Below are positions 45,759 to 64,000 of a stretch of 64,000 nucleotides of DNA, piece after piece. The position numbers were made by a program, and so were the translations under genes. Position 1 is the first letter of the stretch. The number at the start of each line of letters is the position of its first letter. This DNA is from Mycolicibacterium malmesburyense (lineage in GTDB: Bacteria > Actinomycetota > Actinomycetes > Mycobacteriales > Mycobacteriaceae): positions 1-64,000 of the forward strand of contig NZ_CVTB01000221.1 in the NCBI RefSeq assembly GCF_001050015.1, read 5' to 3'. The notes under the pieces are model-generated. The model was not told the origin of the DNA, did no database searches, and worked only from the letters and a program-made list of their open reading frames with translations.

Positions 45759-46508
45759 ATGACGTGGGCCTTGCTGTTCGCCGCCGGCGTTCTCGGCGGG
45801 CTCACCGGCAGCATCGCCGGGCTGGCCTCGGTGGCCACCTATCCCGCCCTGCTGCTGTTCGGGTTGCCTCCGGTGACGGCGAACGTGACCAACACCGTGG
45901 CATTGGTGTTCAACGGCATCGGGTCGGTATTGGGATCGCGTCCCGAACTCGAGGGTCAAGGGGTATGGATCCGCCGCACCGTGCCGATCGCGGTGCTCGG
46001 CGGTGCGGCCGGGGCCGCGCTGCTGCTCACCACCCCCGCCGAGGGTTTCGAAAGATCCGTGCCGATTCTGCTGGCCGTCGCTTCGGTCGCGATCCTGCTG
46101 CCGCGCAAACCCTCCGGCGAACCCGGAAGCCCGGGCCGTCGTCGTGCGGCGGTGGTCGTCGAGGCGACCGCGGTGCTGCTGATCTGCGTCTACGGGGGCT
46201 ATTTCGGGGCGGCGGCCGGAGTGCTGCTTCTCGCGCTGCTCCTGCGCACCGGGCACGCCTCGCTCGCCGAGGCCAACGCGGGCAAGAACGTCATCCTCGG
46301 CGTCGCGAATCTCGTCGCGGCGGTGGTCTTCGCGGTGTGGGCGCCCGTGCAGTGGGGGGCGATGCTGGTGCTGGGCATGGGCTGCCTGATCGGTTCCCGG
46401 CTGGGTCCGGTCGTCGTGCGGCACGCGCCCGCCGGGCCGCTGCGCGTGGTGATCGGCGCCGCGGGCGTGGCGCTGGCGGTCAAGTTGGCTCTCGACACCT
46501 ACGCTTAG
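45759..46508 (+). CDS. TSUP (TauE/SafE) family permease
   Basis: 249 aa, almost wholly hydrophobic, with two related halves: GVLGGLTGSIAGLASVATYPALLLFGLPPVTANVTNTVAL (in pieces) and GGYFGAAAGVLLLALLLRTG, AEANAGKNVILGVANLVAAV. These are the hallmark halves of the TauE/SafE family that exports sulfite, sulfoacetate or other small anions. The substrate is not predicted. It meets the convergent phosphotransferase gene with a 4-nt stop overlap. Confidence 0.92.
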   Translation: MTWALLFAAGVLGGLTGSIAGLASVATYPALLLFGLPPVTANVTNTVALVFNGIGSVLGSRPELEGQGVWIRRTVPIAVLGGAAGAALLLTTPAEGFERSVPILLAVASVAILLPRKPSGEPGSPGRRRAAVVVEATAVLLICVYGGYFGAAAGVLLLALLLRTGHASLAEANAGKNVILGVANLVAAVVFAVWAPVQWGAMLVLGMGCLIGSRLGPVVVRHAPAGPLRVVIGAAGVALAVKLALDTYA

Positions 46509-47569
46509 AGCTCAAAGGGGCTGTCGCCCTTGATCACCCGGTTACCCAGATCGATGAGGTTCTGGGCGTTGGCGTGCAACCGCTCCCCCGCGTCGCGGCT
46601 CGCCTGACCGATCAGGAAACGCGACCAGGTGCCCTCGATCACGACTCCGAGCTTGAAGCACGCCATCGCGATATACCAATCCAGGCTTGAGGTTTCGCGA
46701 CCGCCCGCGGCGAGGTAGGCGTCGAGGAGCTCGCGCCGACTGGCGAGGCCGCCGAGCGCGGCGAGCTGCGCGCCCGCCGTGATCGTGTTCGTCTCCAGCG
46801 GCCAGCAGATGAGCATCCACCCCAGGTCGAGCAGCGGGTCGCCGATCGTGCACATCTCCCAGTCGACGAACGCCGCCACCTCCGGCTTGTCGCGTCGCAG
46901 CAGGACGTTGCTCAGATGCGGGTCCCCGTGCAGCACACCGGGCTTGCCCTCCGGGGGCAGGTTCGACGCCAACCAGTCGGCGAGTTCGGTCACCGCCAGC
47001 GATTCCGGGTCATACCGGTCGTGGCGATAGCTCTCGAGCAGCCGCAGGAACTGAGGAACCTGGCGCTCCAGGAATGATCCGGGCCGTTTGAGCTCGGCCA
47101 GCGGACTGCCCTCCCACTCGACCTGTCCGAGCGCGGCCAGGCTCGCCGCGTACGACAGGCCCACCTGATGACGCATCGCGGGATCACGCACGTAGGCCTC
47201 GGACATGTCGTCGCCGGGGTTGAAGCCGTCCACCTCTTCCATCAAGTAGAAGACGACACCGAGGACGCTGAGATCCTCGCAGCCGGCGATGAATCCGGGG
47301 TGGGGCACCGGTGTTCCCGCCAACGTTCGCAGTGCGGCGATCTCGCGCAACATGGTCTTGTCGCTCGTCGGCCGCGGGTGCGCCGGCGGCCGCCGCAGCA
47401 CCATGGTCCGATCATCGATCCGCAGGCGCACCACGATGTTCTGCGTCCCGCCGGTCAGCGGTTCGACGTCGCCGACCGTCGAACCGAGGCCCTGCGCACG
47501 CACCCACTGCTGCAGCGCGGCCTGGTCGTCCTTGCTCAGTGTCGGAAGCTGATGCGCGTCGTCGGGCAT
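46505..47569 (-). CDS. Phosphotransferase family protein (APH/ACAD10-like)
   Basis: 354 aa. Protein kinase-like fold: the Lys in MVLRRPP region, Brenner motif VLHGDPHLSNVLL with Asp, and the DFG-equivalent FVDWEMCTIGDPLLDLGW. Members of this group phosphorylate hydroxyacyl-CoA-type or other small substrates (the ACAD10 model) rather than antibiotics. The gene stands between the TSUP permease and an SDR without further overlap; the 101 nt upstream of its start include a family-2 hairpin. Substrate unknown. Confidence 0.9.
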   Translation of the reverse strand: MPDDAHQLPTLSKDDQAALQQWVRAQGLGSTVGDVEPLTGGTQNIVVRLRIDDRTMVLRRPPAHPRPTSDKTMLREIAALRTLAGTPVPHPGFIAGCEDLSVLGVVFYLMEEVDGFNPGDDMSEAYVRDPAMRHQVGLSYAASLAALGQVEWEGSPLAELKRPGSFLERQVPQFLRLLESYRHDRYDPESLAVTELADWLASNLPPEGKPGVLHGDPHLSNVLLRRDKPEVAAFVDWEMCTIGDPLLDLGWMLICWPLETNTITAGAQLAALGGLASRRELLDAYLAAGGRETSSLDWYIAMACFKLGVVIEGTWSRFLIGQASRDAGERLHANAQNLIDLGNRVIKGDSPFEL

Positions 47570-47616
47570 GCAGTCATCGTGTCAGGTCGAATGCGCGCGC
47601 CGCTCACCCTATAGGC

Positions 47617-51762: not shown

Positions 51763-51812
51763 AGCCCGCGGTTTTGACACGTCGCCGGCATCGCCGATGG
51801 AAGGATCGCCCC

Positions 51813-54116
<2,304 letters not shown>

Positions 54117-55589: not shown

Positions 55590-56618
55590 TCATGCGCCGC
55601 GCAATTCCTGCAGCACGGCGACTACCGTCGCTTCGTCGATCGAGCGTGGGAAGCCGATCATCACCCGGTCGATCACGCCGTCGCACCGGTCGCGGATCTT
55701 GGCGGCCAGCTTGTCGATCGGGGCGACCACCGCGAACGCCTCGAGGATCTCGTCGTCGACCAGCGTGCCCATCGCGTCCCACTCGCCGGCGAGGCTGAGC
55801 CGGTGAAGCTCGTCGTGCAGATCACCCCACCCGTGCAGCGCCAGCACCTTGCGGTAGGCCGGCGTCGAACCGTAGAAGGCGATCTGCTTGCGGGTGGCGA
55901 CGGAGGACTCGGCCACCTCGCGCTCGTCGGCGCCGGTCACCACGAAAATCGGACACGACACCTGAAAGTCGCTGCGCTGTCGGCCCGATCGGGCCATGCC
56001 GCGCTCGAGCGCCGGGATGGTGATCTCCTCGAAGTAGCGCTTCGTGGTGAAGGCGTGGGCCAGCACACCGTCGGCGACCTCACCGGCCATCTCGGTCATC
56101 GCCTCGCCCACCGCCGCGATGAACACCCGGGGAAACCCGTAGTCGTGCGGTTCGGGGGTGAACATCGGCGTCATGAGCTTGTGCGTGTAGAAGTCGCCTT
56201 CGAACTGCAACCGGGTGCCGTCGCGCCAGCACGCCCAGATCTCGCGCATCGCGTGCACGAATTCGCCCATGCGGCGTACCGGTTGACTCCACGGCATGCT
56301 GAACCGCTTCTCGATGTGCGGGCGGATCTGCGACCCCAGACCCACGATCAGCCGGCCGCGCGAGTAGTCCTGCAGATCCCAGCCGATGTTGGCCACGTTC
56401 ATGGGATTTCGCGCGAACGCCACCGCGATACTGGTGCCGAGGTCGAGGGTTTCGGTGTGCTCGGCGGCCAGGGTCAGCGGCAGGAACGGGTCGTGGGCCA
56501 CCTCGGCCGTCCAGCATCCGTCATATCCGCGCCGCTGCAGCGTGGCCGCCGTCTCCACCACGCTGGCGAGCTGGCTCGAAACCGCCCCGTCGACCTTCAG
56601 GCCGGCGCCGCTAAGCAT
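55590..56618 (-). CDS. LLM-class F420-dependent oxidoreductase (TIGR03617-like)
   Basis: 342 aa from ATG at 56618. The bacterial luciferase-like fold is visible in YDGCWTAEVAHDPFLPLTLAAEHT, LDLGTSIAVAFARNPMNVANIGWDLQDYSRGRLIVGLGSQI (in pieces), and FPRVFIAAVGEAMTEMAG. Mycobacterial relatives use the deazaflavin F420. It is the first gene of the P450 pair: it lies upstream of cyp on the minus strand, separated by ~20 nt. Divergent from the carboxyltransferase with an operator-like element between. Confidence 0.9.
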   Translation of the reverse strand: MLSGAGLKVDGAVSSQLASVVETAATLQRRGYDGCWTAEVAHDPFLPLTLAAEHTETLDLGTSIAVAFARNPMNVANIGWDLQDYSRGRLIVGLGSQIRPHIEKRFSMPWSQPVRRMGEFVHAMREIWACWRDGTRLQFEGDFYTHKLMTPMFTPEPHDYGFPRVFIAAVGEAMTEMAGEVADGVLAHAFTTKRYFEEITIPALERGMARSGRQRSDFQVSCPIFVVTGADEREVAESSVATRKQIAFYGSTPAYRKVLALHGWGDLHDELHRLSLAGEWDAMGTLVDDEILEAFAVVAPIDKLAAKIRDRCDGVIDRVMIGFPRSIDEATVVAVLQELRGA

Positions 56619-56629
56619 GGTCGTAGACG

Positions 56630-56650
56630 CTACAGTAAGCAATTCAGTAT
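56630..56650. promoter_or_regulatory. Degenerate copy of the 63.5-kb palindrome
   Basis: Half-sites CTACAGTAA and ATTCAGTAT around 3 nt match 14 of 18 positions of the perfect palindrome at 63491-63511, with the same spacer length, between the divergent LLM and carboxyltransferase genes. The match hints that one regulator controls both ends of the cluster. Confidence 0.5.
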
Positions 56651-56703: not shown

Positions 56704-58200
56704 ATGACCAAGGCCGACGATTGGCATGCCACGCTCGACGAGCTCTCGCGCCGGCGCCAGACCGCATACGACATGGGCGGCGCCGAGCGCGTTGCCAAGC
56801 ACCGCGACAAGGGCAAACTCGACGCCCGCTCGCGCATCGAGTATCTCCTCGACAAGGGCACGTTCCGCGAGTTCGGCACCCTGGTCGGCGGCGACATCGC
56901 CGCCGACGGCATCGTCGCCGGCTCCGGGTATCTCGACGGCCGGCCCGTGATGATCGGGGCCGAGGATTTCACGACGCTTGCGGGCAGCATCGGCCCCGGC
57001 GGGAACGCCAAGCGGTATCGATTGGCGGAGTTGGCGTTGCGCGACAAGGTGCCGCTGGTGATGCTGCTCGAGGGCGCCGGGTTCCGGCCCAGCGGTGAGC
57101 ACTACGGACGCACCCCGACCGATCTGCTCTCCCAGGCACAGTGCTCGGGCAAGGTGCCGATGGTCGCCGGACTACTCGGGCCGTCCGCCGGGCACGGCGC
57201 GCTGGTCGCCCCCGTCTGCGACTGGACGATCATGAGCCGCCAGGGGGCGATCTTCACCGCGGGTCCGCCCGTGGTGAAAGAGTCGACGGGCGAGGATATT
57301 ACGAAAGAAGACCTCGGCGGACCTTCGGTCGCGCTCGCCAGCGGCGTGATCCACAACTACGCCGAGGACGACGAGGCCGTGCTCGACGACATTCGCCGCT
57401 ACCTGTCGTACTTCCCGTCGAGCGCATGGTCGTATCCGGAGTCGCTGCCCGAAGACGAGGCGACCGCGTCGCGCACCACCCCCGAACTGCTCGACCTGGT
57501 ACCCCGCGGCAACCGGCGCGTCTACGACATGCGGCGCGTGCTCGACGTCGTGTTCGACCGCCCGGACTGGTTCGAGGTACAGCCGAAGTTCGGACCGGCG
57601 ATCATCTGCGCGCTGGCCCATCTCGGCGGTCATCCCGTCGCGGTGGTGGCCAACCAGCCGCAGGTGATCGCGGGCTCCATCGACTCCGACGCGGCGGACA
57701 AGGCGGCGCACTTCATCGCGGTCGCCGACTCCTTCCACCTGCCGATCGTCTTCCTCGCCGACAATCCCGGCATGCTGCCCGGCAGCCGGTCGGAGAAGGC
57801 GGGCGTGCTGCGCAGTGGTGCGCGGATGTTCGCCGCGCAGACCGCCGCGACGACGATCAAGCTGCATGTCACGCTGCGCAAGGCGTACGGGTTCGGCTCG
57901 ATGGTGATGTCGCTGTTGGGTTTTGACAACCAGAGCGCGACGTTCGCCTATCCGGGCGCGACGATGGGCGCGATGAGCGCGGCCGCCCTGAGCAAGGCGT
58001 CCCACGCCGCCGAGGATGTCGAGGCGCGGCTTCGGCAGATGGAGGTCGAGGCGTCGTTCCGGTCGGCGGGCCACCTCGGCTTCGACGATCTGATCCATCC
58101 CGAGGAGACCCGCAACGCGCTGCTGTGGGGTCTGCAGCGGGCGGTCTACAGCCGCCAGGCCGCCGCGGAACCGGTCGCCCGCACGGTCATCACACCCTGA
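56704..58200 (+). CDS. Acyl-CoA carboxylase beta subunit (carboxyltransferase)
   Basis: 498 aa from ATG at 56704. Two crotonase-like carboxyltransferase halves are visible: the N-terminal half with VPLVMLLEGAGFRPSGEHYG and GHGALVAPVCDWTIMSRQGAIFTAGPPVVK (in pieces), and the C-terminal half with FLADNPGMLPGSRSEKAGVLRSGARM and LRKAYGFGSMVMSLLGFDNQSATFAYPGATMGAMS (in pieces). It transfers carboxyl from biotin to an acyl-CoA. No biotin carboxylase/BCCP subunit is adjacent, so it must share one elsewhere. Acyl substrate unknown. Confidence 0.92.
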   Translation: MTKADDWHATLDELSRRRQTAYDMGGAERVAKHRDKGKLDARSRIEYLLDKGTFREFGTLVGGDIAADGIVAGSGYLDGRPVMIGAEDFTTLAGSIGPGGNAKRYRLAELALRDKVPLVMLLEGAGFRPSGEHYGRTPTDLLSQAQCSGKVPMVAGLLGPSAGHGALVAPVCDWTIMSRQGAIFTAGPPVVKESTGEDITKEDLGGPSVALASGVIHNYAEDDEAVLDDIRRYLSYFPSSAWSYPESLPEDEATASRTTPELLDLVPRGNRRVYDMRRVLDVVFDRPDWFEVQPKFGPAIICALAHLGGHPVAVVANQPQVIAGSIDSDAADKAAHFIAVADSFHLPIVFLADNPGMLPGSRSEKAGVLRSGARMFAAQTAATTIKLHVTLRKAYGFGSMVMSLLGFDNQSATFAYPGATMGAMSAAALSKASHAAEDVEARLRQMEVEASFRSAGHLGFDDLIHPEETRNALLWGLQRAVYSRQAAAEPVARTVITP

Positions 58201-58205
58201 CCGGC

Positions 58206-58254
58206 GATTTCGGTGCACTACCCGTCGGTGCGCGAACGGTAGCGCACCGAAATC
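58206..58254. terminator. Inverted-repeat element (family 2, copy B)
   Basis: Arms 58206-58220 and 58240-58254 match at 14 of 15 positions (one G-U), 19-nt loop, between convergent genes. Arms are nearly identical to copy A at 47617-47665. Confidence 0.6.
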
Positions 58255-59296
58255 ACGCCGACGCGCGGTAGGCGGCGACGATCGGCTCGAGTTCCTCGGG
58301 TGTCGCGCCGTGCATGATGAGCGCGTCGGCGCCGTAGTCGAATTCCTTGCGCACCCTCTGGACGCACTGCTGCGGCGAACCGGTCGCGGCGGGTTCCAAC
58401 CACTCGTCGGGGATCAGCGTCGCGATGTGCTCGATCTGCTCGGGCGACGCCTTGTGGTCGATGCCGCCCGGGATGGACTGAACCACGGGATCGTCGCGGA
58501 AACGTTGCAGCACAGCGGGATCCCAGCCGTTGGTGTTGACCAGCAGGTCGCCGTAGCCCTGCAGGTAGGTGGCCAGCCGGGCCACGGTCTTCTTCAGCCG
58601 CAACTCCTCGGGCAGATGGTCGCCGACCGTGGCGAAGCATGACCACACCCGCACGGCGGCCGGATCGCGTCCGGCCTGCTCGGCGGCGTCCTTGACGGTC
58701 TTGACCGCGCGCTGCAGCGTCTCCGGGGTGAAGTAGGTGTGCAGGATGACGTCGTCGAACGCCCGCCCGCCCAGCGCCAGCGTCTGGGGGCCGAAGGCAA
58801 CGATGGCCAGCCGAATGTCCTCGCGGAAGTCCGGATCGAGGAACAACACCTGATACTTGCCGATCGGTCCGTCGTGGTTGAAGATCACCTCGCCGTTCCA
58901 CAGCCGACGCATGACCTGCGCGAAATCCTCCATCTGCGCGGTCGTCACCGACGGGATCCCGAACGCGCCGTACATCGCCGCCACCCCGCGCCCGATGCCC
59001 AGGGTGAACCGGCCGCCCGAGAGCCGGTGCATCGTCGTCGCCCATGACCCGGTGATCAGCGGGTGGCGGGTGTTGTGATTCGTTGCCGCCGTGGCGATCT
59101 GCATGCGCGACGTGACCGCGCACGCCGCGCCGACGAGCGATGACGCCTCCTTGACGTTCCACCGTTCGGAGATGAACGCGGTGCCGAACCCGAGCTCCTC
59201 GCCGCGACGGGCCTCGTCCATCAACGTCGCCGGACCCTCGCCCCCGGCACCGGCCAACAGGTAGTAGCCCAGTTCGTTGAGCACTGATTCGGTCAC
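58253..59296 (-). CDS. LLM-class F420-dependent oxidoreductase
   Basis: 347 aa from GTG at 59296, GTGA overlap with the SnoaL gene. Luciferase-like marks: LGFGTAFISERWNVKEASSLVGAACAVTSRMQIATAATNHNTRHPLITGSWATTMHRLSGGRFTLGIGRG (in pieces) and DVILHTYFTPETLQRAVKTVKDA. Likely uses F420. Last gene of the five-gene coupled operon. Catalyses a hydride transfer on an unknown intermediate, probably the product of the upstream oxygenases. Confidence 0.9.
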   Translation of the reverse strand: MTESVLNELGYYLLAGAGGEGPATLMDEARRGEELGFGTAFISERWNVKEASSLVGAACAVTSRMQIATAATNHNTRHPLITGSWATTMHRLSGGRFTLGIGRGVAAMYGAFGIPSVTTAQMEDFAQVMRRLWNGEVIFNHDGPIGKYQVLFLDPDFREDIRLAIVAFGPQTLALGGRAFDDVILHTYFTPETLQRAVKTVKDAAEQAGRDPAAVRVWSCFATVGDHLPEELRLKKTVARLATYLQGYGDLLVNTNGWDPAVLQRFRDDPVVQSIPGGIDHKASPEQIEHIATLIPDEWLEPAATGSPQQCVQRVRKEFDYGADALIMHGATPEELEPIVAAYRASA

Positions 59297-59670
59297 GCCC
59301 AGACTCCTTGCTTGTAGCCGCAGTTCCACACCTCGACGATCTTGCCGTCGACCACCCGGAAGACTTCCATACTGCCGATCGTGGTCTGCGTGCCGTCCTT
59401 CATCTTGATCGGCGACTGGTAGACGATCGCGACGTGCTCCCCGTCGGCACCGGCCACCACCAGGTTCAGGTCGAACCGGATGCTCTCCGACACCTCCCAC
59501 ATGTCGACCACCCGGCGCACCGCCTGCTCGTGGGTCAGGACGTGCGCGGGCTCCCCCACCTCGTGACGGATCACCGTCTCGCCCAACAGCTCGTCGGCCA
59601 TCGCGAAGTCCGCCTTGTTCCACGCCACCAGGTTGTACAACTCCACCACCTCGCGCGCGGAGCGGCTCAT
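59293..59670 (-). CDS. SnoaL-like/NTF2-fold protein
   Basis: 125 aa. The NTF2 cone fold is indicated by VVELYNLVAWNKADFAMADELLGETVIRHE, then VVDMWEVSESIRFDLNLVVAGADGEHVAIVYQSPIKMKDG (in pieces) and GSMEVFRVVDGKIVEVWNCGYKQGVW. Relatives act as isomerases, hydratases or cyclases on steroid and polyketide rings. ATGA overlaps at both ends of the gene (59667-59670 and 59293-59296) place it in the operon. Confidence 0.85.
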   Translation of the reverse strand: MSRSAREVVELYNLVAWNKADFAMADELLGETVIRHEVGEPAHVLTHEQAVRRVVDMWEVSESIRFDLNLVVAGADGEHVAIVYQSPIKMKDGTQTTIGSMEVFRVVDGKIVEVWNCGYKQGVWA

Positions 59671-60734
59671 GCGAACACCTCCAGGGCGCCGATGGCGTCG
59701 ATCGCGGCCACCGCGCGGTCGGTGAGCGTCAGGCACAGCCGCCGGGATCGTTCCGGCAGCGCGTCCCACCCGTTGAGCGTGATGACCGGCAGCACCATCA
59801 GATAGACGGCGGCGAAGCGATAGTGCCGCCACGCCTCGTCGAATCCGTAGTCCGAGCCGCCGTGCCTGGCCAGATGGTCGAGGTACTCGCGAAGCAGCGC
59901 CTCGTCGTGGCCTTCGCGCACCACAGTCGGAAGGCCCTGTGTGACGAGGTAGGCCACGTCGGACGCCCCCGCACCCCTGGCGGCGAACTGGAAGTCCACG
60001 ACCTTCATGGCATCGCCGGAGAAGAAGAGATTGTCGGCGCGGATATCGCCGTGCAGCAGCATGTTCCGCTCGCTGAGCGCGGGCAGCGCCTCCACCGCGC
60101 GTTCGGCGAAGCGTTCCGTGAACGCGGCCACCGCCGGCGGCACACTCTGCGAGGTGTTCGCGCGGTAGATCTCCCAGCCCGGTCCGAACGCCGGCAACAA
60201 CAGGTCCCGTGCGATCGGGGTGTCGATGCTCGGAAACTGCTCCAGCACGGCGGATTCGCCCGCCCACGAATGCAAACCCGCCAGTTGCCCGATGCAGGTG
60301 CGGGAGCGGTCCATCGTCAGCCCCGCCAGGTGATCGGCGTTGTCCCAGTTCGAGAGGTCCTCGAGCAACAGCACGAAATCGACGCTGTCGTCGGCCATCC
60401 GGGCAGTGTAGACCCGTGGGGTGTCCATCGGTGCACGCCCGGCCACGTCGCGGTAGAACGACAGCTCGCGCCGGTACCCGCCCAGCAACTCCATCGCGCC
60501 GCGCGCCTCCGACACCGCGGGCAGCTTCACGATCAGCGTGGTCGGAACGCCGGTCCCGCTCAGGTGCAGCCGGTACAACAGCGACGAGAAGCCGCTGTCC
60601 ATCGCGATCTGCTCGACACGGACGTCGTCGACGGTCGCGCCGTCGAGACCCGCCTCGGTGCGCAGCGCCTCGGTCAACCAGTCGGCGTCGACCTCGTCGA
60701 TGCCGCCCGGCACCGCGGCCGTGCTCGTCGTCAT
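59667..60734 (-). CDS. Phosphotransferase family protein (APH fold)
   Basis: 355 aa, with ATGA overlaps at both ends. Kinase-fold motifs: LIVKLPAVSE (Lys), MLLHGDIRADNLFFSG (Brenner motif with Asp), and MKVVDFQFAARGAGASDVAYLV (DFG-equivalent Asp). Its coupling to a BVMO and an alpha/beta hydrolase suggests it phosphorylates a hydroxylated catabolic intermediate, as proposed for ACAD10-type kinases (inference). Confidence 0.9.
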   Translation of the reverse strand: MTTSTAAVPGGIDEVDADWLTEALRTEAGLDGATVDDVRVEQIAMDSGFSSLLYRLHLSGTGVPTTLIVKLPAVSEARGAMELLGGYRRELSFYRDVAGRAPMDTPRVYTARMADDSVDFVLLLEDLSNWDNADHLAGLTMDRSRTCIGQLAGLHSWAGESAVLEQFPSIDTPIARDLLLPAFGPGWEIYRANTSQSVPPAVAAFTERFAERAVEALPALSERNMLLHGDIRADNLFFSGDAMKVVDFQFAARGAGASDVAYLVTQGLPTVVREGHDEALLREYLDHLARHGGSDYGFDEAWRHYRFAAVYLMVLPVITLNGWDALPERSRRLCLTLTDRAVAAIDAIGALEVFA

Positions 60735-61840
60735 CGCGCACCCCTCCCGTCGACCGCGGTCAGGAATCGCTCCGAGGCCCGCTGCACACCGCCCGCGAAC
60801 AGGTGGCCGACGTGGCTGCCCCGATGCCAGTACAGTTCGCCGCCCCACCGCTCGTGCAGTCGTTCGGCCGGTTCCCGCCGCGCCATCTGGTCGTGCCAGG
60901 CGCCGACGATCAGCCGGCGCTCGGGCGGCGCCGTCGGCTCGACGGCCTGGTAATCGACCACCGACATCACCCGCTCCACCGGCTCCGACCGCAACAGCTC
61001 GATCGTGTCGTACACCGACGGCCCCCACCGCCCCAGGTGCGCGGCGATCATCGCGTTGAGCCCGAAGATCGGTGTGTAGACCGCGACGGCGTCGACCTCC
61101 TCGAGGTGCGACACCAGGCCCGCCACGGGGCTGCCCATCGAAACCCCCGACACCGCAACCGCGCTCGCCTGCGGCCGCAGCCACCGAAGCACCGCCCGCA
61201 CCTCGGAGACCACCCGGACCATGCCCGCCAGGTTGTTCAGCGGGTCCATGTTCGGATAGGTCGGCCACCGGTCGCGTCGCACTCCGCATCCGGGCTGCAC
61301 CGGTAACGCGATGTTGTACCCGAGTTGCTCCTGCAGTCGCCGCGCCCGCGAGAACACCAGGTCGATCGGCAGCCCCTGGCCCGCCCCGTGCACCCACACC
61401 AGCCACGGCCGCGGCTCGTCACCGGTCCGGCACAGGTGCACCACCGCCGTCGCGGGGCCGCCGAACTCGGCCAGCGACGCCGGCAGGTGGGGATCGTGCT
61501 CGAAGGTCAACTGCTCGTATCTGGTCCGGCCGAACCGGCGCCGACGGATCGCTCTCGGCCGCAGTTCATCCGGTGCGACGTGCACGCCGGTCATACCCAA
61601 CCCGGCCAAAGTGTCGGCTGCCGCCGCGCAGGACTCGACCGTGCGCTCGACTCTCGGCGGCGGCGCGGTCAGCGTCATCCCGGACAGGGCCAGTTCGTCG
61701 AGGACGACCTCCCCGAGTTGCCGGGCACCCCTGCGTGACAGCGGCTTCCAATCGCCCGGCGCCGCCACCGCGGCGTGCGCCCGCGGCACCACACCCGCGA
61801 AATCGCGGCCGATGCGATAGGCGCGTTCGGCCGTTCTCAT
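60731..61840 (-). CDS. Alpha/beta hydrolase
   Basis: 369 aa, ATG at 61840 overlapping the BVMO stop as ATGA. After an N-terminal ~130-residue region comes the hydrolase core: PWLVWVHGAGQGLPIDLVFSRARRL (oxyanion HGAG), the nucleophile elbow VSGVSMGSPVAGLVSHL, and a C-terminal GSHVGHLF with the candidate His. Following a BVMO it is a natural lactone/ester hydrolase. Longer upstream starts to 62107 overlap the BVMO and are rejected. Confidence 0.9.
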   Translation of the reverse strand: MRTAERAYRIGRDFAGVVPRAHAAVAAPGDWKPLSRRGARQLGEVVLDELALSGMTLTAPPPRVERTVESCAAAADTLAGLGMTGVHVAPDELRPRAIRRRRFGRTRYEQLTFEHDPHLPASLAEFGGPATAVVHLCRTGDEPRPWLVWVHGAGQGLPIDLVFSRARRLQEQLGYNIALPVQPGCGVRRDRWPTYPNMDPLNNLAGMVRVVSEVRAVLRWLRPQASAVAVSGVSMGSPVAGLVSHLEEVDAVAVYTPIFGLNAMIAAHLGRWGPSVYDTIELLRSEPVERVMSVVDYQAVEPTAPPERRLIVGAWHDQMARREPAERLHERWGGELYWHRGSHVGHLFAGGVQRASERFLTAVDGRGAR

Positions 61841-63462
61841 GCCAGCTTGAACCCGGTGTATCCGGCATCGGCAACCTCGTCGCAGCGACGCCGATACTCC
61901 GGGATGCCCGCGGTGTAACCCATGTACATCCGCTTCTTGCCCGGCACATTGCCGCCGTTGTACCAGGAATTGCAGGTCGGATGGTCGAGCACCGTGGGGG
62001 CCACCAGCGACGTCGCGTGTTCGATCCACTCGCGCTGGGCCTCGGGCAGCGCCTCGATGCTCCGGTAGCCGTGCCGTGTCAGGTAGTCGATGCAGTCGCT
62101 GATCCACTCGACGTGGTGTTCGAGGGCGGTCACGAAGTTGCTTGCGGGCGCGGGACTTCCGGGTGCCTGGATGATGAACAGGTTGGGGAAGCCGGCGACC
62201 GCGATCCCCAGGTAGGTGTAGGGGCCCTCGGCCGTCCAGAAGTCGCCGAGGGATTGGTGGTCGCGGCCGGTGACGGCGATCCGCGACATCGCCCCGGTCA
62301 TCGCGTCGAATCCGGTCGCGTAGATGATCACATCGAGTTCGTGGTCGCCCTGCTCGGTGCGGATTCCCGTCGGGGTGACCTCCACGATCGGCCCCTTGCG
62401 CAGATCCACCAGCGTCACGTTGTCGCGATTGAACGTCTCGTAATAGCCCTGGTCGATGATCGGGCGCTTACATCCGAACGGATGGGTCGGGGTCAGTGCC
62501 GCCGCGGTCCCGGGATCCTCGACGATGCGCGCGACCGCCTCGCCGTAGAGTTTGGCGGCCATCTGATTGGCCTCGATGTCGAAGAACACGTCGCCCCAAC
62601 TGAGCGCACCGATGATGCCGCCCTCCTCGACGGCACGCAGTTGCTCCTCGCGCGATGCGGACTTCAGCGGAGGTTTGGTCATCATCTCGAACATCACCGA
62701 GAACGCGCTCAGCCGCGCCGCACCCACGGCGTGTTCCCGTTGCGCCGCGCGGATCTCGGCGTAGTTGGCCTTCAGCTCGTCGAGTTCGCCGTCGTCGAAC
62801 GCTCGGACCTGCCACGGCAGGGTGTAGGCCGGCGATCGCTGGAACACGGTGAGGTGGCCGGCCTGCTCGGCCACGACCGGGATCAGTTGCACCCCGGTGG
62901 AACCCGTCCCGATCACGCCGACCCGCTTGCCGGTCAGGTCGACGTCGCTCTTCGGCCATCGACTGGTGAACAGCGACTGCCCGCCGAAGGCGTCCACGCC
63001 GGGGATCTCCGGTTCCTTCGGGATCGACAGGATGCCGGTCGCCGCCACGACGAACGGTGCGACGAGGGTGTCACCGTCCGCGGTCCGCACCCGCCATTCG
63101 GAGGCGGCCTCGTCGAAGGTCATCTCCGTGACCTCGGTGTGAAACCGTATGTCACGCCGCAGATCAAGCCGGTCGGCGACGAAGTTCAGGTAGGCCTCGA
63201 TCTCGGGCTGGCGGGGCATCGTCTCGGTCCACACCCACTCCTGCTGGATCTCCTCGGAGAAGCTGTAGGAGTACTCGATGCTCTCGATGTCACAGCGAGC
63301 GCCGGGATACCGGTTGAACAGCCATGTGCCGCCGACGTTCTCGGCCTTTTCGAGCACGATGGTGCGCAATCCCTGCTCTCGCAGTCGATGCAGCGCGTAC
63401 AGACCGGAGAACCCGGCCCCGACGACGATCGCGTCGAAGCGGGTGGTGTCGGATGTCCTCAC
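61837..63462 (-). CDS. Baeyer-Villiger-type flavin monooxygenase with atypical fingerprint
   Basis: 541 aa from GTG at 63462 (GAGGG 7 nt upstream). FAD site IVVGAGFSGLYALHRL, GGTWLFNRYPGARCDIESIEYSYSF (in pieces), NADPH site VGVIGTGSTGVQLIPV, and C-terminal ATGFDAMTGA. The BVMO fingerprint FxGxxxHxxxW reads FGGQSLFTSRW, i.e. His replaced by Phe. It should oxidise a ketone to an ester or lactone, or act as a general flavin oxygenase. First gene of the five-gene coupled operon; a palindrome lies 29 nt upstream. Confidence 0.93.
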   Translation of the reverse strand: MRTSDTTRFDAIVVGAGFSGLYALHRLREQGLRTIVLEKAENVGGTWLFNRYPGARCDIESIEYSYSFSEEIQQEWVWTETMPRQPEIEAYLNFVADRLDLRRDIRFHTEVTEMTFDEAASEWRVRTADGDTLVAPFVVAATGILSIPKEPEIPGVDAFGGQSLFTSRWPKSDVDLTGKRVGVIGTGSTGVQLIPVVAEQAGHLTVFQRSPAYTLPWQVRAFDDGELDELKANYAEIRAAQREHAVGAARLSAFSVMFEMMTKPPLKSASREEQLRAVEEGGIIGALSWGDVFFDIEANQMAAKLYGEAVARIVEDPGTAAALTPTHPFGCKRPIIDQGYYETFNRDNVTLVDLRKGPIVEVTPTGIRTEQGDHELDVIIYATGFDAMTGAMSRIAVTGRDHQSLGDFWTAEGPYTYLGIAVAGFPNLFIIQAPGSPAPASNFVTALEHHVEWISDCIDYLTRHGYRSIEALPEAQREWIEHATSLVAPTVLDHPTCNSWYNGGNVPGKKRMYMGYTAGIPEYRRRCDEVADAGYTGFKLA

Positions 63463-63490
63463 AGATAAGCCCTCACGTCCAGAAGTGGAG

Positions 63491-63511
63491 ATACTGTAAC
63501 TATTACAGTAT
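63491..63511. promoter_or_regulatory. Perfect palindrome upstream of the BVMO operon
   Basis: ATACTGTAA and its exact complement TTACAGTAT around CTA, in the interval between the BVMO (start 63462) and Rieske (start 63632) genes. A left half-site CTACTGTAA recurs at 63584-63592 nearer the Rieske gene. Probable TetR-type operator; no candidate regulator lies inside this end of the window. Confidence 0.7.
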
Positions 63512-63631
63512 TGCGCCGCACCGTCGGCCGGTTTTCGGGGAACACCGGCTCGGAGCGCCGAGGTATCGCACTTCCTGAAACCGCTACTGTAAGCTCTTCC
63601 ATTAGTTCGTGGAGATGGGAGGCCGTGCGGC

Positions 63632-64000
63632 ATGAAAGTACCGTTCACCTGGAAGGTCACCGGCTGGTTCATGATCGGCTGGTCCGCGGAATTCGCCGTG
63701 GGCGAGACGCGGCCGCTGCGGTACTTCGGCGAGGACCTGGTGGCCTATCGCGACGAGGACGGCGAGCTGCACGTGCTCTCCGCGCACTGCCGGCATCTCG
63801 GTGCGCACATCGGCCACGGCGGCAAGGTCGTCGGCGACTGCGTCGAATGCCCCTTCCACGGTTGGCGGTGGGGGCCGGACGGCACCAACCGCTACATCCC
63901 CTATCAGCCCGACAAGCCGAACAAGGCGCTGCGGCTGCGCGTCTTCCCGGTGCGCGAACAGTACGGCTGCGTGTTCGCCTGGCATCACCCCGAGGGCGAG
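63632..64000 (+). CDS. Rieske-type oxygenase alpha subunit, partial (runs off the window)
   Basis: 123 codons are visible from ATG at 63632 (GGGAGG 9 nt upstream); the frame stays open at the edge. The Rieske [2Fe-2S] ligands are complete: CRH, then 17 residues, then CPFH (in GAHIGHGGKVVGDCVECPFH), and GWRWGPDGTNRYIPYQPDKP follows. The sequence style resembles KshA and related steroid/terpenoid ring hydroxylases. The catalytic mononuclear iron domain lies beyond the window. Divergent from the BVMO operon and probably co-regulated with it. Confidence 0.9.
   Translation, partial: MKVPFTWKVTGWFMIGWSAEFAVGETRPLRYFGEDLVAYRDEDGELHVLSAHCRHLGAHIGHGGKVVGDCVECPFHGWRWGPDGTNRYIPYQPDKPNKALRLRVFPVREQYGCVFAWHHPEGE

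Follow-up and report, generated by a model that had tools for sequence, protein, structure and literature searches.

The limonene (lim) pathway of Rhodococcus erythropolis DCL14 brings together a Baeyer-Villiger monooxygenase (BVMO), a hydrolase, a small NTF2-fold protein and an LLM enzyme. Its limA gene is named in a report on Rhodococcus globerulus, in which CYP108N12 and CYP108N14 of that species are described as hydroxylating monoterpenes, namely limonene, p-cymene and terpineols (PMC11279926). For the Lva (levulinate) pathway, with LvaA and LvaC, and for the mammalian ACAD10 and ACAD11, phosphorylation of a hydroxyacyl-CoA by a kinase is reported to be followed by elimination of the phosphate on a flavoenzyme, which leads on to beta-oxidation (PMC11342911, PMC12440821). 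A phytosterol transcriptome study reports a 'motif X' of palindromic form, which it attributes to an orthologue of Rv0767c (G155_05115) and places beside 14 operons, most of which were induced (PMC6593523). Here we investigate a five-gene operon with likenesses to each of these systems, and the regulon in which it appears to lie, in a stretch of 64,000 nucleotides from Mycolicibacterium malmesburyense (RefSeq assembly GCF_001050015.1, contig NZ_CVTB01000221.1, positions 1 to 64,000), referred to below as the window.

The operon is on the minus strand of the window. Its genes encode, in order, a BVMO-like FAD/NADPH monooxygenase (63462-61837, GTG start, Pfam FMO-like), an alpha/beta hydrolase without a Pfam family, recognized by the fold of its AlphaFold model (61840-60731), a kinase of the APH/ecdysteroid-kinase-like (EcKL) type (60734-59667), a SnoaL-like small protein (59670-59293, Pfam SnoaL_2 and SnoaL) and an LLM-class oxidoreductase, LLM1, of NCBIfam family TIGR03857 (F420_MSMEG_2249), which is predicted to be F420-dependent (59296-58253). 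All neighbours are joined by overlaps of four bases, ATGA at the first three junctions and GTGA at the last. An initial annotation of this DNA had described five genes linked in this way, with a Rieske oxygenase gene divergent from them across a palindrome, and the open reading frames, all four junctions and the divergent arrangement were confirmed. The perfect palindrome, TACTGTAACTATTACAGTA, is at 63492-63510, between the operon and the gene for the KshA-type Rieske oxygenase, which starts at 63632 on the plus strand and is present as its 5' part only (63632-64000, Rieske Pfam match) where the window end truncates it. Pfam and NCBIfam agree with the gene families that had been named, except for the hydrolase, which has no family match and whose fold is supported by the AlphaFold model. 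No description of this gene set was found in the open literature searched, where the pairing of TIGR03857 with a kinase was not itself a search term; likewise, the annotation had named no described pathway.

When genome contigs were scanned with the hydrolase, 44 loci were recovered, every one labelled as Mycobacterium or Mycolicibacterium and most in the same arrangement. Species with the cluster include M. aurum and M. vaccae. Together with the window and nine of ten further loci that were fetched, these make up the 54 loci considered here; L090, with a second hydrolase copy and no other cluster gene, was left out. A gene was counted as present when tblastn aligned 40% of the query at 50% identity or better, or at 60% or better in the case of the two P450s; the hydrolase is present by construction, some loci are cut by contig ends, and the truncated Rieske gene of the window does not count. 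On this basis the hydrolase and the LLM are present in all 54 loci, the carboxyltransferase described below in 51, the BVMO-like protein, the SnoaL-like protein and a second LLM (LLM2) in 50 each, the Rieske oxygenase in 47 and the kinase in 45. Nine loci are without the kinase, four without SnoaL and four without an intact enough BVMO-like gene. Where start codons were assigned by script in the relatives, the overlap is kept between kinase and SnoaL in 45 of 45 loci, between SnoaL and LLM in 40 of 50, between BVMO-like gene and hydrolase in 34 of 48, and between hydrolase and kinase in 17 of 45. Half of the loci, 27 of 54, also have a TetR gene, which occupies the hydrolase-kinase gap in the maps inspected. 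Scattering of the members among relatives, which the initial annotation had named as telling against its proposal, is therefore not what is seen inside the genus: there is synteny in the 44 loci, and the presence counts hold in the 54.

At E 1e-10 the hydrolase has a match, often a weak one, in 323 of the 396 genomes of the genus. In the wider bacterial family there are also 31 more distant matches (36-45% identity), from genomes taken to be of other genera; in the ten that were fetched, one of them a short stretch (L102), no BVMO, kinase, SnoaL or LLM1 gene was found. Outside the genus nothing like the five-gene set was seen apart from a similar operon carried by a Pseudonocardia plasmid and composed of genes for an FMO-like protein, a TetR, an alpha/beta hydrolase, a kinase and a TIGR03857 LLM. 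The locus tags in the names of the two LLM families, MSMEG_2249 and MSMEG_2256, are seven apart, and these names suggest that a form of the cluster is present in M. smegmatis.

The palindrome TACTGTAACTATTACAGTA has an 8-3-8 architecture. With up to three mismatches allowed there are two sites in the window, against a mean of 0.01 in shuffled versions of it. The second, a diverged copy with three mismatches, is at 56631-56649, between the genes for LLM2 (55590-56618, minus strand; TIGR03617, F420_MSMEG_2256, 513.8 bits against a cut-off of 278.15) and an acyl-CoA carboxyltransferase-type subunit (56704-58200, plus strand, Pfam Carboxyl_trans). Sites with at most three mismatches recur at fixed places in the relatives, namely in this same gap, where the variant is identical in 42 of 45 sources (the window and the 44 loci), and in the gaps before P450, dehydrogenase and aldehyde dehydrogenase (ALDH) genes. 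The exact palindrome, TACTGTAANNNTTACAGTA, is found in 36 of the 44 loci, with one or two copies in each of ten genomes, and in 215 of the 396 genomes of the genus; the reversed pattern, used as a control, is found in one.

Among the matches listed there are 75 operator sites, 57 with a listed hydrolase position and 18 without. Of the 57 that could be placed, 56 are no more than 15 kb from the hydrolase gene; the last is in a different contig of a draft genome. A count by eye gave at least 14 genomes in which the operator occurs but the hydrolase has no match at E 1e-10. From the 18 sites that lack a listed hydrolase position nine places were opened, and regulon genes are present at every one, the Rieske gene in all nine and the second P450 gene in eight. 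In four stretches (L271-L274) LLM1 adjoins the Rieske gene, accompanied by FadD, ALDH, P450 and CaiB genes, and there is no BVMO, hydrolase, kinase or SnoaL gene; a fifth (L270) is without hydrolase and kinase, and some of these five stretches stop shortly past the LLM gene. Because operator sites elsewhere sit among regulon genes without them, the BVMO-like, hydrolase, kinase and SnoaL genes look like a changeable arm and the regulon like the lasting core. We regard it as close to certain that the operon is part of a bigger, jointly controlled mycobacterial regulon. The catabolic operon with a divergent Rieske gene that the initial annotation had proposed is supported, and it proves to be conserved; the bigger regulon around it was not part of that annotation.

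Which protein controls these operators? The region holds three TetR genes. TetR-A, the one encoded between hydrolase and kinase, was discarded as a candidate for the common repressor, since no match was found at E 1e-15 in six of ten genomes, all of which carry the operator. TetR-C is present in all ten, at 74-100% identity, and in nine of these it is on the same contig as the cluster, about 20-35 kb away. In all four flanks that hold TetR-C an operator-like site, with two or three mismatches, is beside its gene. TetR-C is thus the best candidate and, by prediction, probably the repressor of the regulon.

The most novel feature of the operon is the kinase with its LLM partner, and this pairing extends beyond the mycobacteria. 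TIGR03857 genes are present on plasmids at five places in four records, and in each of the four places opened (two in Rhodococcus pyridinivorans, one in Pseudonocardia and one in Streptomyces) a phosphotransferase gene adjoins the TIGR03857 gene. Three of the four plasmid kinases are 28-31% identical to the window kinase; the Streptomyces kinase gave no match and is of the plain APH kind. A larger sample of 68 TIGR03857 loci was drawn from order-level (150 genomes) and class-level (246 genomes) sets of Actinomycetes and comprises all 26 genes over the cut-off in the order-level listing and, of 60 class-level genes, the 42 not already included. The controls, taken from the same searches, were 32 LLM genes below the cut-off, 14 of many listed at order level and 18 of 20 at class level. 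Kinases were sought with a hidden Markov model built from the kinases in hand. A kinase was found within 1 kb of the TIGR03857 gene in 41 of the 68 loci and within 1 kb of none of the 32 control LLM genes (Fisher p 4e-10, relatedness ignored); with a stricter motif scan the counts are 16 of 68 and 0 of 32. The 41 calls include one made from a 52-residue match (L220, E 2e-9) and another that is weak (L161, E 1e-9); a further protein, at L183, has no family match, and its coordinates are possibly out of frame. The kinase gene may be upstream of, downstream of or divergent from the LLM gene, and the LLM-linked kinases fall into at least two sequence clusters, one of EcKL and one of APH type. Since the association survives rearrangement, a shared reaction sequence is indicated, and we consider it probable, from this genomic evidence, that the kinase and the LLM act in one.

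Several results weigh against so close a partnership. The kinase model was trained partly on kinases beside such LLM genes, and relatedness among the loci, disregarded by the Fisher test, bears on its p value. In 27 of the 68 TIGR03857 loci, several of them cut by contig ends, there is no kinase within 1 kb. In mycobacteria the LLM is kept without a kinase in nine of the 54 loci and in the further species of L270-L274. The LLM evidently does not always need the kinase, and these loci, with the 27 others, lower the likelihood of both the kinase-LLM pair and the novel chemistry suggested below.

EcKL is the best Pfam match of the kinase, with APH also matched; Lys70, the segment His228-Asn235 (HGD...N) and Asp247 are invariant in 27 sequences, so that the APH/EcKL motif is complete. 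Its AlphaFold (AF2) model (pLDDT 92.2) matches the folds of methylthioribose, homoserine, choline and antibiotic kinases and of Rv3168. LLM1 scores 499.7 bits against the curated TIGR03857 cut-off of 218.4, and its best Protein Data Bank (PDB) matches are F420-dependent methylene-tetrahydromethanopterin reductases (Mer). Use of F420 by the TIGR03857 LLM is predicted from the family name and from this similarity to Mer; that it is family assignment which speaks for the cofactor has to be counted against the proposal that we make for this enzyme. A second APH-type kinase gene is present elsewhere in the window (46505-47581, minus strand), and a 68-73% identical copy of it is found in an M. hippocampi flank (L062). 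On the R. pyridinivorans plasmid pA (L106 and L108), a gene for a phosphoenolpyruvate-utilising enzyme and pyruvate-phosphate-dikinase genes are near the kinase-LLM pairs and are possibly another phosphorylating system; L106 additionally has P450, ALDH and short-chain dehydrogenase/reductase (SDR) genes.

The best PDB matches of the BVMO-like protein are phenylacetone monooxygenase (PAMO; 1w4x, E 1.5e-156) and steroid monooxygenase (STMO; 4ap3, E 7.9e-156), and two or three GxGxxG Rossmann motifs are present in all 48 orthologues. Type I BVMOs have the fingerprint motif FxGxxxHxxxW[PD]. In 47 of the 48 orthologues, including that of the window, the histidine of this motif is replaced, by Phe in 41 and otherwise by Tyr, Leu or Ser, the motif being intact apart from this; for this reason the protein is called 'BVMO-like' here. 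The proteins with the replaced histidine are perhaps a distinct subgroup. The Baeyer-Villiger cleavage that the initial annotation had proposed thus has the family match with PAMO and STMO in its favour and the fingerprint against it, and Baeyer-Villiger activity appears likely but not assured. The hydrolase, with no Pfam or NCBIfam match at E 0.001, has the alpha/beta-hydrolase fold in its AF2 model (pLDDT 90.3), for which the best Foldseek matches are acetyl xylan esterases, followed by other alpha/beta hydrolases. Across 32 sequences Ser234 and Asp317 do not vary, but neither of the candidate catalytic histidines, His343 and His346, is invariant, which, like the missing fingerprint histidine, counts against the explanation given below.

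Next to LLM2 is a cytochrome P450 gene (54330-55574, minus strand), with P450terp as the nearest solved structure (1cpt, E 2.5e-102) and 169 of 405 aligned residues identical to it (41.7%); by PDB matches it is nearer to P450terp than to CYP125. A full-length orthologue of the Rieske oxygenase, in L001, has Rieske and KshA_C domains, with KshA as the best PDB match (E 5.2e-32). In relatives the cluster continues with genes for FadD, an isochorismatase-like protein, ALDH, SDR, the second P450, a CaiB-type CoA transferase and a molybdopterin oxidoreductase, and the wider cluster has a thiolase gene with one for a ChsH2-type protein, together with genes for an acyl-CoA dehydrogenase, an amidohydrolase and an enoyl-CoA hydratase. 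Next to the carboxyltransferase gene a gene for a biotin carboxylase was not noticed, though no search was aimed at one; this too counts against the explanation given below. A gene at 51798-54116, which we take to encode a CstA-like carbon starvation transporter, is beside the regulon in 23 of the 54 loci.

Starting from what is observed, the gene content, its conservation, the shared operators and the kinase-LLM association, we slightly favour the view that the operon serves as an accessory arm for ring opening within a large regulon, under TetR control, for the use of a cyclic isoprenoid-like compound, a terpenoid in the first place and a steroid-like compound in the second. That the regulon has a catabolic role is very probable from its predicted enzymes. 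Catabolism of a ring compound is indicated because the neighbours include the P450terp-like P450, the KshA-type Rieske oxygenase, a CoA ligase, ALDHs and beta-oxidation genes. A cyclic isoprenoid as the substrate is our best guess, held tentatively and at somewhat short of even confidence, because the P450 is nearest to P450terp and because Rhodococcus CYP108 enzymes are reported to hydroxylate monoterpenes (PMC11279926).

In such a pathway the P450 and the Rieske oxygenase would hydroxylate the substrate, and dehydrogenases would yield ketones and acids. Ring opening would fall to the BVMO-like enzyme together with the hydrolase, the latter acting on an ester or lactone, and CoA ligases would load the acid onto CoA. 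The kinase, where present, would phosphorylate the freed hydroxyl; the F420-type LLM would then work on the phosphorylated product by hydride transfer, through phosphate loss or reduction of the resulting alkene, and the chain would enter beta-oxidation. TetR-C, coded 20-35 kb away, would repress the whole. The gene order had been read earlier as a five-step pathway. As an obligatory sequence this is not supported, since the kinase, SnoaL, BVMO-like and hydrolase genes are each missing in some species, whereas the LLM and Rieske genes are mostly retained. The stepwise order is a reasonable sketch and not established; its weakest steps are classical Baeyer-Villiger cleavage and isomerisation, for which, in the case of the SnoaL-like protein, there is no direct evidence.

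The main rival to a cyclic isoprenoid substrate is a steroid pathway, for a sterol, a steroid acid or a side product, in which the Rieske oxygenase would be a KshA paralogue and the BVMO-like protein a steroid monooxygenase. The KshA_C domain and the KshA structure match of the Rieske orthologue fit this well, as do the name 'cholesterol 7-desaturase' given to some Rieske relatives in UniRef and the ChsH2-type and thiolase genes of the wider cluster, while the BVMO-like protein matches STMO and PAMO alike. Against it, the P450 is nearer to P450terp than to CYP125, the main texts of two sterol transcriptome papers are without the terms tried for these genes, and the operator is unlike those of Rv0768-type loci: TACTGTAA is absent from 11 of 11 such loci in ten genomes, with at least five mismatches in the best match, a comparison made with these loci and not with the published motif X logo and operon list. 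The cluster may nonetheless be sterol-induced. On balance we think a steroid pathway unlikely, although it deserves more weight than the explanations that follow.

Host names such as M. pyrenivorans, M. vinylchloridicum and M. vanbaalenii, taken from pollutants or polluted sites, might instead point to a cluster for xenobiotic or polycyclic aromatic degradation in pollutant-degrading environmental strains. The operator, however, with its 215 of 396 genomes, is more widespread than expected of pollutant degraders, and among 39 proteins scanned there is no extradiol dioxygenase or dioxygenase beta subunit; we judge this explanation improbable. It would be equally surprising if the kinase inactivated an antibiotic or a toxic terpenoid and so served a protective function within the operon. 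The APH fold, and the name 'aminoglycoside phosphotransferase' given to the kinase in some databases, agree with such a function, but EcKL is the best Pfam match, the kinase gene is overlapped inside a catabolic operon, and kinases of this kind are often beside one oxidoreductase family across Actinomycetes. The presence of its operator in over half of the sampled mycobacterial genomes suggests that the regulon serves a common carbon source, and because the operator is precisely defined and there is a candidate for the repressor, the inducer can be screened for directly.

How, then, does the cluster compare with the described systems? Like the KstR/KstR2 and motif X regulons, it is a mycobacterial regulon of catabolic genes under TetR control, among them genes for P450s, ALDHs and SDRs (PMC6593523). 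It differs from the motif X/Rv0767c regulon in that its operator and regulator are unlike those at Rv0768-type loci, which are likely the source of the published motif. The regulators beside those loci are at most about 31% identical, over short stretches, to the TetRs of this cluster. A TGGACA/TGTCCA palindrome is found at at least four of ten Rv0768-type loci, two recognized by script and two by eye; in L240, L242, L245 and L246 it is upstream of the ALDH gene and is a candidate Rv0767c-type operator. Identity with the phytosterol motif X regulon was rejected on these differences of operator and regulators, as seen at the Rv0768-type loci and not in the published logo or operon list.

The limonene pathway has a similar parts list, of BVMO, hydrolase, small protein and LLM. 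In our operon, in contrast, the small protein is of the SnoaL and not the limonene epoxide hydrolase (LEH) family, the LLM is TIGR03857, and a kinase is added. Identity with the limonene pathway was rejected, the small protein having Pfam SnoaL_2 and SnoaL matches and a PDB match to LEH of only E 0.1. With the CYP108 systems, P450terp and CYP108N12/N14, the cluster shares a P450 that is 41.7% identical to P450terp, and ALDHs and a CoA ligase nearby. The customary line for a P450 family is 40% identity, and this value barely exceeds it.

The closest parallel to the kinase and its LLM partner is with LvaA/LvaC and ACAD10/ACAD11, where a kinase is likewise paired with a flavoenzyme (PMC11342911). 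In this cluster, unlike those systems, the recurrent neighbour of the kinase is the TIGR03857 LLM and not an acyl-CoA dehydrogenase, and the kinase is EcKL-like; the acyl-CoA dehydrogenases of the wider cluster, which may or may not be of LvaC type, lie at other places. By analogy, the Actinomycetes may have a reaction of two enzymes, not yet described, by which an EcKL/APH kinase makes a phosphate ester on the hydroxyl of a hydrophobic catabolic intermediate and the TIGR03857 LLM, with reduced F420, removes the phosphate or reduces the product. The chemistry of phosphate loss is itself doubtful, and the reaction as a whole is a speculative suggestion to which we give a low probability, as we do to the idea that such phosphorylation-assisted dehydroxylation is the F420-based equivalent of what LvaA/LvaC and ACAD10/11 do. 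If the two enzymes do cooperate, they would represent a new biological means of hydroxyl removal and would give a function to TIGR03857, a hypothetical equivalog in NCBIfam.

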